Source: a virus
Length of the DNA: 28,209 nt
Virus record (IMG/VR): IMGVR_UViG_3300020467_000029
Span: 1 to 28,209 of that record
Reading direction: 5' to 3' (one strand)
In this document: one piece after another, positions 2,277-7,461 of the stretch
Layout of the letters: each line of letters starts with the position of its first letter
Position numbering within the stretch: the stretch's first letter is position 1
Notes under the pieces: model-generated
The model's input: only the letters and a program-made list of their open reading frames with translations
What the model was told of the DNA's origin: nothing
The model's database searches: none
Position numbers and translations under genes: made by a program

Positions 2277-2843
2277 ATGGCAGACACACTAGAAATAGTG
2301 CATAGCTGGGTTCTAAATACTCTTAGCAAAAAAGGGTGGAGTGCTAGAAAATGGGCAATTGAAGCTGGTGTAGCTCCTTCCACCTTGCAAAGATTTATTA
2401 AGGAAAAACCGTGGTGTTTATCACAAGTTGTAATTGTCAAGCTTGGAGCAATTAGCAAATCATACCCAGACTTTCCTAATCCTCAAGCTCTTGTTTCCAA
2501 AGTAAAACATTTACCAATAATGGTATTTAAAAAAGGTGCGTTAATGGAAACAGAAAAAACAATAGTTACCACAGAAGATATTTCTCCTAAAGCTTTTGCT
2601 ATTCCAGTTCAATGGAACACTATGGACTTAGCTGGCTATCATATAGGAGATACAATAGTTGTTGATCCTGACATAAAACCAACAGATGGTAAATGTGTCC
2701 TGATACAATTTCAAAATAAAATACAGATTATGGAATACAGAACACCATACTTGCTTCCTAGATCGGCACAAAGCCAACAAGAAATAGATGTAGGATTGGT
2801 TGATATAATGGGAGTTGTTGTTCAGTTAATCCGTAAAGTCTAA
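2277..2843 (+). CDS. CI-like repressor with degenerate S24/LexA domain
   Basis: The 188-aa protein has an N-terminal HTH (residues ~22-45: SARKWAIEAGVAPSTLQRF) and a C-terminal domain of the LexA/UmuD/CI peptidase S24 fold. GYHIGDTIVVDPD, then GKCVLIQFQNKIQIMEYR and the closing IMGVVVQLIR are typical S24 strands. The nucleophile position of the usual G-[DN]-S-M motif reads WNTM, giving Thr115 instead of Ser. No Lys stands where LexA-type proteins have VKR (here IMEYR). Self-cleavage is therefore doubtful, and induction may use an antirepressor or another signal. It is probably the lysogeny repressor and acts on the palindromic operators nearby. The start follows AAGGTG. Confidence 0.8.
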   Translation: MADTLEIVHSWVLNTLSKKGWSARKWAIEAGVAPSTLQRFIKEKPWCLSQVVIVKLGAISKSYPDFPNPQALVSKVKHLPIMVFKKGALMETEKTIVTTEDISPKAFAIPVQWNTMDLAGYHIGDTIVVDPDIKPTDGKCVLIQFQNKIQIMEYRTPYLLPRSAQSQQEIDVGLVDIMGVVVQLIRKV

Positions 2844-3998: not shown

Positions 3999-4623
3999 AA
4001 ACTCAGCTAAATCGGTTTGGGCTACCTTGTCTGCAATAGACGTATCTGACCATATAGAAAAGAAAGGTCAGTTCAGCTATGTCTCATGGGCATGGGCTTG
4101 GGCATTGGTAAAGCAACATTATCCAACTGCTACATTTGAAAAGCATACTTTCAATGATAATCAAAATAATATATTACCTTTTATGAGAGATTCTTTAACA
4201 TTTACTTATGTATCTGTTTCAGTAACTATTGAAGGTATTACTCAATCAGAAATTTATCCAGTATTAGGCAATAGAAATGAGCCTCTAAAAGCAGCAACAT
4301 CATTTCAAGTCAATACTGCCTTACAAAGAGGTCTTGTTAAGTGTTTAGCTTATCATGGTCTTGGCACTTCCATATATGCTGGTGAGGATTTACCAGTTAT
4401 GGATAAAGATTATCTTGATATTAAGAAAGCTACTAAAAGTGAACAAGATCATGCTCATTATCAACGTATAGATTCAGCATTAGGTGCTTGTAAGGATAAA
4501 GACGAGCTTATTGCAACTTGGAAATCAGAGGCACCTGTAATAGCCAAGCTGGATAACAAAGTTGTTAGTAAGCTTCAAGGTCATTACAAGACTTATCTCA
4601 ATAAACTTAAAGCGGCTGCTTAA
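3988..4623 (+). CDS. Sak/DUF1071-type single-strand annealing protein
   Basis: The 211-aa protein starts with the signature of the DUF1071/Sak group: VWATLSAIDVSDHIEKK, followed by YVSWAWAWALVKQHYP. AATSFQVNTALQRGLVKCLAYHGLG in the middle matches the family's conserved GDA.TNALKRC-type segment, and a charged helical C-terminus follows. These are Rad52-like proteins that anneal complementary single strands made by the exonuclease. It starts inside the exonuclease gene (11-nt overlap, with AAGGAAA upstream), and its TAA overlaps the next ATG by one base. It probably acts in phage recombination, replication or genome circularisation. Confidence 0.82.
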   Translation: MATKNSAKSVWATLSAIDVSDHIEKKGQFSYVSWAWAWALVKQHYPTATFEKHTFNDNQNNILPFMRDSLTFTYVSVSVTIEGITQSEIYPVLGNRNEPLKAATSFQVNTALQRGLVKCLAYHGLGTSIYAGEDLPVMDKDYLDIKKATKSEQDHAHYQRIDSALGACKDKDELIATWKSEAPVIAKLDNKVVSKLQGHYKTYLNKLKAAA

Positions 4624-4961
4624 TGGATAGACGATACCCATTATCGTATCTTTTAGAGACTTTCTGTGGTTTAGATTCAAATACAAAGAATCTAAATCGC
4701 TGGAAAGCTTTACTAAGAAAATCAACTGTGCCAATAATTCTAGATAGTGGTAATTGGCTAATTAAAGAAAAAGACTTTTATAACTTCTTGAAGGGTAGGG
4801 AACATTGCTTCAAGTACGAAAAAGAAAAGATAGAAAAAGCTTATATATTCAAGGAACAGTCCAAACCCCAAACGGAAACATCAGGGTTAAACAGTCTGCA
4901 AAAACTACTAGCCGTAAAGAAGCAGAAAAACTTGCTCATGAAATCTATGGACAAATATTAG
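4623..4961 (+). CDS. Probable excisionase (winged-helix), overlapping the integrase
   Basis: The first ~60 residues look like an AlpA/Xis-type winged helix: YLLETFCGL (helix), NLNRWKALL with the usual Trp, then PIILDSGNWLIKEKDFYNFL, the wing and final helix. Such proteins bend attP/attL DNA and steer the integrase toward excision. The frame runs 112 aa to 4961, overlapping the integrase by 157 nt. The Lys-rich tail past residue ~61 is therefore read from sequence that is clearly integrase in another frame. The start is coupled to the preceding stop (TAATG). The order Xis-Int is typical of phages. Confidence 0.6.
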   Translation: MDRRYPLSYLLETFCGLDSNTKNLNRWKALLRKSTVPIILDSGNWLIKEKDFYNFLKGREHCFKYEKEKIEKAYIFKEQSKPQTETSGLNSLQKLLAVKKQKNLLMKSMDKY

Positions 4962-5821
4962 ATCAGGCATATGGACGAGGACACTCCCCAAACTATAGCT
5001 TTAGAGATGCTTCGATTGATTACCTTAATGCAAAGGAGTCAATCGACAGATCAACCGAAGCAAGAATACGATTTCTTGATCTATATTTCGGGAGTACCCG
5101 TTTGTCTGACATTAACAATGGAATGTTCAACGAAGTACTTAATAGAGTTAAGCCAGGAATCAAACCCTCTTACTTTAATAGAATCCGATCATGCCTTGTC
5201 GCAATCCTCAACTACGGCTCCAAACAAAGAAGCCCAAATATTGCCATTCAGAAAATTGAAAGACGAAAAGTAGGAAAGCCAAAACCAGTCTTTCTTCCAT
5301 ATAACGAACAAGAAAGATTAATTGATGCTTTTAACCCAATTCTCCAACCACTTATCATTTTCCTTTGCTATACAGGAGCTAGAATTGGCGAAGCCGTCTG
5401 TCTATTATGGAAGGACGTTGATATGGATAAACGGACTATCACATTCTGGGACACCAAGAACGGCGATTTTAGGTCTATCCCCATGCACGACAGAATATAC
5501 GAAAGCCTACGTTTGCTTAACAGAGAACGGGAAGGTCCAGTATTCCTATCAACTTCACTTAAGCCCTTCAGGTATTTCTATACAAGAAGTGGTAACCCTT
5601 TGGGGAAAACTCATAGTAGGGCTGTCGAAAAAGCCCTGGGTAAACATAGAAGATTTAAAGTTCACAACTGGAGATCACATTGGGCATCTACCCATGCGTT
5701 AGCTGGTATTAACGACAAGAAGCTAATGGCTCTTGGTGGTTGGAATGATACTAAATCTGTAGCCCATTATATTAAGCTAAACCCTGAACAGCTTAGAGAC
5801 GATATTAACAAAATGAAATAA
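4805..5821 (+). CDS. int: Tyrosine integrase
   Basis: The 338-aa protein carries the full tyrosine recombinase set: R193 in YTGARIGEAV, K218 in the DTKNG beta-hairpin, H287-x-x-R290 in VHNWRSHWAS, W313 in ALGGW and the nucleophile Y322 in SVAHYIK. An arm-binding N-terminal strand region (residues 1-45) and a SAM-like core-binding domain (~62-150) come first. The start is a TTG at 4805 with GGTAGGG upstream; a later start would remove the N-terminal domain. It inserts the phage into a host tRNA gene, using the attP core at 6436-6485 about 0.6 kb downstream. A short hairpin follows the stop. Confidence 0.93.
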   Translation: MLQVRKRKDRKSLYIQGTVQTPNGNIRVKQSAKTTSRKEAEKLAHEIYGQILDQAYGRGHSPNYSFRDASIDYLNAKESIDRSTEARIRFLDLYFGSTRLSDINNGMFNEVLNRVKPGIKPSYFNRIRSCLVAILNYGSKQRSPNIAIQKIERRKVGKPKPVFLPYNEQERLIDAFNPILQPLIIFLCYTGARIGEAVCLLWKDVDMDKRTITFWDTKNGDFRSIPMHDRIYESLRLLNREREGPVFLSTSLKPFRYFYTRSGNPLGKTHSRAVEKALGKHRRFKVHNWRSHWASTHALAGINDKKLMALGGWNDTKSVAHYIKLNPEQLRDDINKMK

Positions 5822-5842
5822 CCCTCACGACAGTAGTGGGGA
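5822..5842 (+). other. Short hairpin after the integrase
   Basis: C5823-C5828 pairs with G5836-G5841 (six pairs, one T-G wobble) around a 7-nt loop. No T-tract follows, so it is a poor terminator. It may only protect the int mRNA 3' end. Part of it (5831-5843) recurs inverted at 6560-6572. Confidence 0.35.
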
Positions 5843-5853
5843 AGGAAAGTAAA

Positions 5854-6079: not shown

Positions 6080-6118
6080 TAGGGGTAACGATAGCCTCTG
6101 GTATGATTGTACCCCCTA
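6080..6118 (+). other. Intergenic stem-loop
   Basis: TAGGGGTA (6080-6087) pairs with TACCCCCTA (6110-6118), 8 bp with one bulged C and a 22-nt loop. It lies between the two small genes, and no T-run follows. It could affect translation of the 6133 gene, which starts 15 nt later. The role is not known. Confidence 0.35.
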
Positions 6119-6132
6119 AAATGGAGAAAATA

Positions 6133-6342
6133 ATGACAAATAAAATTAAAAATATAAAACATAATGGTATAATTGATGTTTGGAATTTCTGTGGTTTTGA
6201 AGAATATCCAAAAGAATATGGCAAACGAATATATATAGATGTGTCAGCACTAGCAGATGCTTCTTTGCACGAAATACAAAGCAATAAAAGATATAAAAAC
6301 TATGATGTTGAGCTTTGTGGTGTAAAAAGATGGGAATGGTAA
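6133..6342 (+). CDS. Unknown small protein (69 aa)
   Basis: Of three in-frame ATGs (6103, 6121, 6133), the third has GGAGA a few bases upstream, and the first lies inside a stem-loop. The product begins with a basic segment (MTNKIKNIKHNG) and has several aromatics (DVWNFCGFEEYPKEYG) and a WEW C-terminus. I recognise no family. It is the last rightward gene before attP; its stop is directly followed by the first integrase arm-site repeat. In many temperate phages this position holds a small accessory or directionality gene, but nothing in the sequence proves that here. Confidence 0.6.
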   Translation: MTNKIKNIKHNGIIDVWNFCGFEEYPKEYGKRIYIDVSALADASLHEIQSNKRYKNYDVELCGVKRWEW

Positions 6343-6364
6343 TTGTCCCCAAATTGTCCCCAAA
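6343..6364 (+). repeat. Left pair of arm-type integrase site candidates
   Basis: Two exact tandem copies of TTGTCCCCAAA (6343-6353 and 6354-6364) stand about 70 bp left of the tRNA-derived core. The same unit recurs as a pair on the other side (6639-6660). Paired short direct repeats on both sides of a core are what P- and P'-arm sites of tyrosine integrases look like. Confidence 0.6.
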
Positions 6365-6371
6365 AGCCAAT

Positions 6372-6387
6372 GCCTAGATATATAAGT
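6372..6387. promoter_or_regulatory. Operator candidate O4, inside the attP region
   Basis: GCCTAGATATATAAGT matches 11 of 14 defined positions of the operator consensus; its left half is a perfect match. It lies between the left arm sites and the att core. No promoter clearly belongs to it, although the AT-rich core could act as a -10. It might link repressor binding to attP architecture, or be a chance match. Confidence 0.4.
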
Positions 6388-6435
6388 AAAATTATAAATG
6401 GAAATATGTATTAATAACAATGGGTTAACTAGGTC

Positions 6436-6485
6436 TGGTGCCGCCAACTGGATTTGAACCAGTGACCTCGTCATGACCACAAGTT
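6436..6485 (-). other. attP core: 3' half of a host tRNA gene
   Basis: Read on the - strand, this ends with a T-arm (ACTGG, loop TTCAAAT, CCAGT), an acceptor strand TGGCGGC, discriminator A and CCA. Only the 3' half is present, so it is not a working tRNA gene. It is the segment that restores the host tRNA after insertion. The isotype cannot be fixed without the 5' half. Pelagiphages are known to use tRNA genes, including tRNA-Leu. Phage genes on both sides show it is attP rather than attL or attR. Confidence 0.8.
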
Positions 6486-6513
6486 ATTCAAAATTATATT
6501 TTATAAAACACAT

Positions 6514-6561
6514 AAAAAAAAGACTCAAATGTTAGGCGCACTAACACTTTGAGCCTCTTTT
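6514..6561 (-). terminator. Bidirectional terminator next to the att core
   Basis: CTCAAATGTTAG (6524-6535) pairs with CTAACACTTTGAG (6541-6553), 12 bp with one bulge and a 5-nt loop. On the - strand it is followed by eight T (plus-strand A-run 6514-6521), an excellent leftward terminator. On the + strand a weaker CTTTT follows. It would keep late transcription out of attP and the early region. Confidence 0.75.
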
Positions 6562-6638
6562 CCCCACTACTGCCGAGTTGGGCAATATTTAGAAATCTAA
6601 TCATATTTGACGTATGAAGATCAATTCACATTACTTTT

Positions 6639-6660
6639 GTGTCCCCAAATTGTCCCCATT
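6639..6660 (+). repeat. Right pair of arm-type integrase site candidates
   Basis: GTGTCCCCAAA (6639-6649) and TTGTCCCCATT (6650-6660) match the left-arm unit TTGTCCCCAAA at 10/11 and 9/11 positions, in the same orientation and the same tandem spacing. They lie about 155 bp right of the core, consistent with a P' arm. Confidence 0.55.
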
Positions 6661-6677: not shown

Positions 6678-6711
6678 AAAGGGACAGACTTAACATTAAA
6701 TCTATCCCTTT
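6678..6711 (-). terminator. Late-operon terminator
   Basis: AAAGGGA (6678-6684) and TCCCTTT (6705-6711) bound a near-perfect hairpin. On the - strand the two internal C-A mismatches become U-G wobbles, so the leftward RNA forms about 16-17 continuous pairs. A T-rich tract (TTTATTTTTCC) follows. The strand preference fits termination of the leftward late transcript after the endolysin. Confidence 0.65.
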
Positions 6712-6759: not shown

Positions 6760-6951
6760 ATGAAAAAAAATAAACATTACACAAATTCAAAAAATGTTGA
6801 ATTTAAAAAGTTAATGGAAGAATGTGCAAAAAACTCAATACCAGAAGAAGGTGTCTTTGAAGATATAGCATTTGATCCTGATGAATCCATTATGCACAGA
6901 TCAAAGCCATCATCAGAAATAGGAGTTAAAAGTAGCTTAGGTAGTCTCTAA
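6760..6951 (+). CDS. Small unknown protein (63 aa)
   Basis: This open frame has AAAGG seven bases before its ATG and encodes a soluble charged peptide (basic start MKKNKHYTNSKN, acidic middle EEGVFEDIAFDPDES). It runs opposite to the endolysin and overlaps its 3' end by 15 nt. It is alone in orientation on this side of attP, so it might be a lysogenic accessory gene. No family is recognised, and short length keeps confidence moderate. Confidence 0.5.
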   Translation: MKKNKHYTNSKNVEFKKLMEECAKNSIPEEGVFEDIAFDPDESIMHRSKPSSEIGVKSSLGSL

Positions 6952-7461
6952 CATTTCTAATGCTGTTTTTCTTGTTTCATAACATCGCCTATCCCAACCT
7001 TTGCCAAATGTATCATAGGTACTTAATGTTCTGTAAAAGCTTGATCTTTGAGCCGTATATGTCTCAATAACACCCTTAACTGTAGTAGGGTAGTCTTGAA
7101 TAGCTTGTAAAGTAGCTGGACCTATATGACCATCTACAGACGTTCTTAAGAATCCCTGAAGAATTTTAGATGCTCTTGAGACACCAGCATTAACTGCAAA
7201 ATCAAATACTGCCCAATCTAATCCACTAGGCAATTCATCGCCTTTGACTTTATCCCAGTATTTTCTCTTATATATTTCGCCTACAGCTTCTAATGGCATA
7301 TCCTTTACTTCTTGTATAGTACATTCTCTGCCAAGATAAGTTTCATATACCTTTTTAGTCACCCCAAAATTAGTGGCTCCTCCTGGATCACGGCTATCAT
7401 TTACAAAACCACCCTCATGTTTTAGAACTAGCTCTAAGGCTTTATCAAAGTTACCTATCAT
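6937..7461 (-). CDS. Endolysin, GH108 family muramidase
   Basis: The 174-aa protein begins with the GH108 signature: LKHEGGFVNDSRDPGGATNFGVT, with catalytic Glu16 in HEGG. The C-terminal half (FAVNAGVSRASKILQGFL, then VDGHIGPATLQAI) matches the peptidoglycan-binding domain usually paired with GH108 (PG_binding_3). It hydrolyses the glycan backbone of peptidoglycan at lysis. No N-terminal signal or anchor is visible, so it should need the holin to reach the wall. The holin gene stops inside its start (ATGA, 4-nt overlap). It is the last gene of the leftward late operon; two terminators lie beyond. Confidence 0.9.
   Translation of the reverse strand: MIGNFDKALELVLKHEGGFVNDSRDPGGATNFGVTKKVYETYLGRECTIQEVKDMPLEAVGEIYKRKYWDKVKGDELPSGLDWAVFDFAVNAGVSRASKILQGFLRTSVDGHIGPATLQAIQDYPTTVKGVIETYTAQRSSFYRTLSTYDTFGKGWDRRCYETRKTALEMLETT

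Follow-up and report, generated by a model that had tools for sequence, protein, structure and literature searches.

An integrase accompanied by a tRNA-type attP has been described in marine phages, including the SAR116-linked groups G16 and G18, in the relevant portion of Mizuno et al. 2013 (PMC3861242), where G16 genomes are given as about 35 kb with 35% GC. For the mycobacteriophages Ms6 and L5, the pertinent portion of PMC1762012 reports that one and the same integrase can be directed to a different tRNA gene by altering the attP core. Among actinobacteriophages, the corresponding portion of PMC10865867 reports that close relatives use different tRNA attB sites and that paired putative arm sites flank the core. 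In this study, we analysed a 28,209-base virus record (the window, meaning the whole stretch at its full length), which is classed as linear, is without end repeats and may fall short of a whole genome. With a probability of roughly 87% on the sequence comparisons below, positions 6343-6660 represent the attP of a temperate podovirus-like SAR116 phage, whose integrase would recombine the core with the host tRNA-Thr(GGT) gene in its 3' half, most likely by exchange at about tRNA positions 38-44. The site is very probably the point at which this marine bacterial virus splices into host DNA.

The features of a lambda-type (bivalent) attP (P-COC'-P') found at this locus were an adjacent tyrosine integrase, its N-terminus modelled as three strands plus a helix, a pair of arm sites to either side of the core, and identity of that core to the host attB (39/39 bases). 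Unlike a lambda-type attP, the window has four arm sites in the same orientation, arranged as two tandem pairs, around a core consisting of a tRNA end. The SAR116 phages of PMC3861242 are likewise described as having an integrase and an attP identical to a SAR116 tRNA gene, and the principle of our host inference is that of the same paper, our comparison with G16 and G18 being one of descriptions only. Unlike Ms6 and L5, for which the pertinent part of PMC1762012 deals with engineered point changes, the window and its relative L031 represent a natural whole-core replacement combined with inversion, and, unlike some actinobacteriophage cores that fail to restore the tRNA according to the part of PMC10865867 on this subject, the window core restores it exactly to the CCA. 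As a kind of element, the tRNA attP is already known; the natural swap and inversion with a base-exact right-arm distance appears to be the new part, and our literature search recognised no tRNA core flipped between close phages, which is not proof of absence.

Gene order, integrase and arm repeats

The early genes of the window encode a RuvC-like nuclease, an HTH protein, an S24-type repressor, a YqaJ-type exonuclease, a Sak-type annealing protein and the tyrosine integrase. The repressor (S24 peptidase/CI-like; 2277-2843, plus strand) matched PF00717 (E=2.2e-5) and the UmuD-like (1.3e-7) and transcriptional repressor (4.4e-5) PHROG families, and would be a member of a lysogeny module. A 112-residue ORF overlapping the integrase start (4623-4961, plus strand) had no family matches in Pfam and PHROG; its position would suit a directionality factor (xis), none of which was identified in those searches. 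The late genes lie on the minus strand, from a head-tail connector at the right end through to the endolysin (GH108 plus PG-binding; 6937-7461; PF05838, E=2e-28; PHROG endolysin, 8.6e-49). The attP region sits between the convergent integrase and endolysin genes, and gene order across the site is the same in relatives L031-L035. A 79-residue ORF without a family (6103-6342) has a stop codon that directly abuts the left arm; related sequence is present in L032 and absent from L031, and thus the cargo between integrase and attP varies. The phages collection held no close record for the window, only a 103-base match to HTVC203P.

The integrase gene (4805-5821, plus strand, TTG start) encodes a protein of 338 residues with matches to PF00589 (E=2.3e-17) and to the PHROG integrase family (2e-48). 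Residues R193, K218, H287, R290, W313 and Y322, which we take to be the catalytic residues from the pattern of lambda Int, were invariant across 17 aligned relatives, and the catalytic set is complete. The integrase model comprises, in order, three strands plus a helix, a helical domain and a catalytic domain. Its N-terminus (strands at 3-6, 13-21 and 24-31, helix at 37-56) belongs to a putative arm-binding domain that is only modestly modelled (mean pLDDT 74.8, pTM 0.46). Foldseek matches of the model included lambda Int (1z1g/1z1b), the TM score to full-length lambda Int being about 0.5.

Flanking the core on the plus strand are four putative integrase arm-type sites. The left (P) pair consists of two exact copies of TTGTCCCCAAA at 6343-6353 and 6354-6364, an 11-bp spacing, and the right (P') pair of GTGTCCCCAAA at 6639-6649 (10/11 bases) and TTGTCCCCATT at 6650-6660 (9/11); the initial annotation had claimed two copies on each side with these identities and in a single orientation, and the coordinates bear it out. 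The left and right arms share the 19-mer TGTCCCCAAATTGTCCCCA without mismatch (6344-6362 and 6640-6658). No exact direct repeat within 400 bp is longer than this one at any point in the window, and first-order Markov shuffles of the window gave a direct repeat longer than 15 bp in 0 of 200 cases. All four plus-strand occurrences of TGTCCCCA are inside the arms, and there are none on the minus strand. Potentially, the N-terminal domain of the integrase binds the two pairs of 11-bp sites and its other domains bind the core, such that the protein would bridge arm and core sites as in lambda, with attP bent into an intasome.

The tRNA-derived core and its host

The attP core (6436-6474, minus strand) is a 39-bp sequence identical at 39/39 positions to residues 38-76 of tRNA-Thr(GGT), that is, from position 38 to the CCA. 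Beyond the core, tRNA positions 33-36 (TGGT) match as well, and positions 32 and 37 mismatch. The core had already been recognised as the 3' half of a tRNA, but the span then assigned to it, 6436-6490, overshoots by about 16 bp towards the anticodon, and its minus-strand orientation, the reverse of that in all the relatives seen, was missed. No complete tRNA gene was found in the window, as expected of a core that is half a gene. The phage-specific side of the core (6475-6513) is without similarity to relatives and would represent the C half-site. Strand exchange would most likely occur in the 3' strand of the anticodon arm, at about positions 38-44, and the recombination product would have host tRNA-Thr positions 1-37 joined to phage-supplied positions 38-76; as the phage supplies position 38 to CCA exactly, the tRNA gene would be restored upon insertion. 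An 8-base palindrome, GTCATGAC, is located at 6470-6477, exactly at the edge of attP-attB identity.

A scan with 38 bases of the core against one genome per species for 84,980 species identified 29 contigs, none of them SAR11. By their titles 28 are SAR116 and one is an Alphaproteobacteria bacterium (L029), the 5' flank of which resembles that of SAR116 L005. ARAGORN was applied to 17 of the 29 loci and in each placed the match at the end of a tRNA-Thr(GGT) gene, and the upstream tRNA sequence was the same in all 29 as far as the contigs reach. Among 136 genomes of the SAR116 order, the core was exact in 29 and within 3 mismatches in 40. An exact SAR116 tRNA-Thr(GGT) end in the core indicates that the host is a SAR116 bacterium and not SAR11, which had been suggested from the window and was rejected on the titles of the 29 core-bearing contigs. 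The description of the core as a direct host marker is valid at clade resolution (SAR116, with the 39-mer exact in the same 29 of 136 genomes). Besides correcting the SAR11 guess, the core assigns a clade-level host to an uncultured phage with no need of cultivation or CRISPR data. A 32-mer of the tRNA end had no matches in viral_contigs.

The window integrase had no match at E<=1e-20 in the 136 SAR116-order genomes, and attL and attR were therefore not seen there; the integrase family profile had two matches at E<=1e-40 in 385 alphaproteobacterial genomes. The tRNA-Thr(GGT) and tRNA-Val genes are occupied by other elements in some SAR116 genomes. The 3' part of tRNA-Thr(GGT) is repeated 2.3-2.5 kb downstream in G014, G015, G026 and G049 (L114-L117), with one copy degraded in G049, and no integrase was noticed among the ORFs of at least 90 residues, which suggests old, decayed islands at tRNA-Thr. 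Similarly, the 3' part of tRNA-Val(GAC) is repeated 6.4 kb downstream in G015 (L118), where a PF00589 integrase gene adjoins the tRNA gene, and 2.4 kb downstream in G051 (L119). These islands have repeats longer than the core and an integrase, where present, that is 26% identical, and are thus not integrated copies of the window phage.

Core inversion and the probable position of strand exchange

Related integrases are encoded at nineteen viral loci. A second scan with the alignment as query returned the same 19, and a search with the conserved terminator-side block returned only contigs already seen; L036 and L037 end inside the integrase and were excluded from every count. A tRNA 3' end is located downstream of the integrase on the same strand in all 17 relatives with a visible attP, and only the window is inverted. 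L031, whose integrase is 86% identical to that of the window, has the arm 19-mer TGTCCCCAAATTGTCCCCA on both sides of a core formed by the end of tRNA-Val(GAC) (45/45 bases, exact in 23 of the 136 SAR116 genomes). L032 has a tRNA-Val(TAC)-like end, for which there was no match within 3 mismatches in the 136 SAR116-order genomes. L033-L035 have tRNA-Ala(GGC)-like ends, the cores of L034 and L035 being exact among the listed SAR116 genomes and that of L033 not being among the matches listed. The more distant L038-L049 (integrase 41-49% identical) have tRNA-Gly(GCC).

To either side of the core the window can be aligned with L031 (6341-6380 and 6514 onwards), but the core itself does not align. 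Window positions 6472-6513 and L031 positions 7142-7183 are identical at 13 of 42 positions, which is at the level of chance (shuffle mean 10.6), and the stretch that begins at 6514 and runs up to the right arms shares 143 of its 147 bases with L031. Relative to tRNA position 41, the two right-arm sites begin at +169/+180 in the window as well as in L031, and at +169/+181 in L032, whereas the left-arm distance is 127 in the window versus 84 in L031, a change of 43 bp or about four helical turns. Since the core is inverted between the window and L031 and yet their right-arm distances are equal, position 41 is singled out as the centre; more broadly, the window falls within the distance range of its near relatives (169 to 179) only for a centre between positions 41 and 46. 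The choice of position 41, based on the identity edge, preceded the calculation of the distances. The edge of attP-attB identity is at position 38 in three phages (the window, L033 and L034); in L035 it lies at 36 and in L031 at 31, and in none of the six near relatives does the identity stop short of 38. Together, the edge at 38 and the equal right-arm distance suggest a 7-bp overlap at tRNA positions 38-44 (6468-6474, minus strand, putative centre 6471), the length of 7 bp being assumed from known tyrosine integrases. Because the window mismatches at positions 32 and 37, within the anticodon loop (32-38) over which attP equals attB at class I sites, the site was filed as an anticodon-arm type and not as strict class I.

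Helical phase alone would also permit centres at about 35, in the anticodon loop, or 57, in the T loop. We regard exchange in the anticodon loop (32-38), in the manner of class I and with the mismatches at 32 and 37 tolerated, as doubtful but deserving of serious consideration. The class I crossover is given as the 7-bp anticodon loop in the pertinent part of PMC1762012, L031 and the tRNA-Gly group match the host over the whole loop, and the phase fits to within about 1.5 bp. However, position 37 differs from the host in each of the window, L033 and L034, only three of the seven loop positions match in L033 and L034, and a centre at 35 would give a right-arm distance of 163 in the window versus 175-185 in the others. 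Exchange in the T loop (class II) is considerably less probable: the core does cover the T arm exactly, but the identity to at least position 38 in six near relatives is more than a T-loop site needs, and a centre at 57 would give a right-arm distance of 185 in the window versus 153-163 in the others.

The core behaves as an exchangeable cassette, the arms and the right-arm distance being kept and the tRNA target and orientation changed between the window and L031. In the window arrangement, the integrase gene would adjoin the restored tRNA, and in L031 the terminator/endolysin side would. We lean, with modest conviction, towards the view that attP is modular in this lineage, with a conserved arm frame, a fixed right-arm distance and a tRNA core that can be exchanged or flipped. 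Nearly the same integrase would thereby move between SAR116 tRNA-Thr and tRNA-Val, swapping the prophage end that faces the restored tRNA, and the inversion would serve as a ruler that locates the centre at 41 to 46 from sequence alone. The window and L031 are a close natural pair, with the arms the same and the tRNA core different and inverted, and could be used to test the tolerance of the integrase for a new overlap and a reversed core with the arm geometry fixed.

Arm sequences in relatives, integration state and hairpins

A repeat in the same orientation is common to the left and right flanks in 17 of 18 attP regions (the window plus 17 relatives), with at most 2 of 300 shuffles, which kept base composition only, reaching the score; L045/L046, L047/L048 and L033/L034 are near duplicates, and therefore 17/18 is not a count of independent phages. 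The exception is L042, in which 100 of 300 shuffles reached the score and the inverted arm score exceeds the same-orientation one (10 vs 9); in L033 the two scores tie (14/14). The arm unit is TGTCCCC in the window and L031, TGACACA in L032, TGGCACA in L033, L034 and L039, and TGACACA/TGTCACA in L035, with other variants, including TGACAAA, elsewhere. As the unit differs among phages and its left and right versions mostly agree within each, both sides have changed in concert. The attP with arm-type repeats around a tRNA-derived core that was proposed in the initial annotation is thus upheld, by comparative data far stronger than the window alone.

The 19-mer TGTCCCCAAATTGTCCCCA was also found in six other viral contigs (L126-L131), and in four of these an integrase ORF or the 3' end of a tRNA lies next to it. 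Its neighbours in L131 are a tyrosine integrase ORF, another pair and a tRNA-Gly end; L129 and L130 have a tRNA-Val end beside it, and L127 a weak integrase match (24.4 bits, under the cut-off of 27.1); no integrase or tRNA-end neighbour was recognised beside it in L126 and L128. This distribution supports a role as an integrase arm site and shows that the arm sequence is not peculiar to the window phage. Tandem repeats of 11 bp typify iterons and operators too, and the TGTCCCC repeats could in principle be sites for a regulator or for replication instead. Such a role is very improbable, however, given that the repeats in relatives are always paired around the tRNA core downstream of the integrase, that they changed in concert on both sides, and that the same 19-mer lies beside unrelated integrases or tRNA ends. 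In L129-L131, phages that are otherwise different, the arm motif and the tRNA end run antiparallel to each other, an arrangement shared with the window.

That the contig is an integrated element and its tRNA fragment attL or attR, a prophage boundary, is scarcely credible and was rejected: the portion of PMC4383910 concerned treats a tRNA 3' fragment beside an integrase gene as what usually marks an island end, but this fragment has phage genes and an arm pair to its left and to its right, the gene order across it is shared with L031-L035, no host DNA lies beside it, its flanks had no convincing match to the fetched host tRNA-Thr loci beyond the core, and the second core copy that the initial annotation had named as the mark of such a boundary is absent from the window, the next best match being 22/39. 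One continuous P-core-P' flanked by the integrase and endolysin genes, in the order conserved in those relatives, supports unintegrated phage DNA, in agreement with the earlier reading of an uninserted attP. The accompanying proposal that the sequenced DNA was virion or circle is likely rather than proven, as tandem prophages would look alike.

A hairpin followed by T8 (6517-6558, minus strand; -22.7 kcal/mol, z -4.8) lies in a block conserved in relatives and is probably the terminator of the late/lysis operon; a simple terminator scan did not list it. In L031, the hairpin and U-rich tail within about 10 bases of the CCA could end transcription of the tRNA, and with the inverted core of the window that hairpin would fall across the crossover from the tRNA end. 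A second strong hairpin with a T-rich tail is located beyond the right arms (6678-6711, minus strand) and is kept in relatives, placing two terminators in series behind the endolysin operon. In addition, a perfect 13-base inverted repeat, CAGTAGTGGGGAA at 5831-5843 and TTCCCCACTACTG at 6560-6572, has one copy in a leader just past the integrase stop and the other beside the attP terminator, and could permit RNA pairing of the integrase 3' end with the attP region. Both copies of this repeat are present in L031 and L032.
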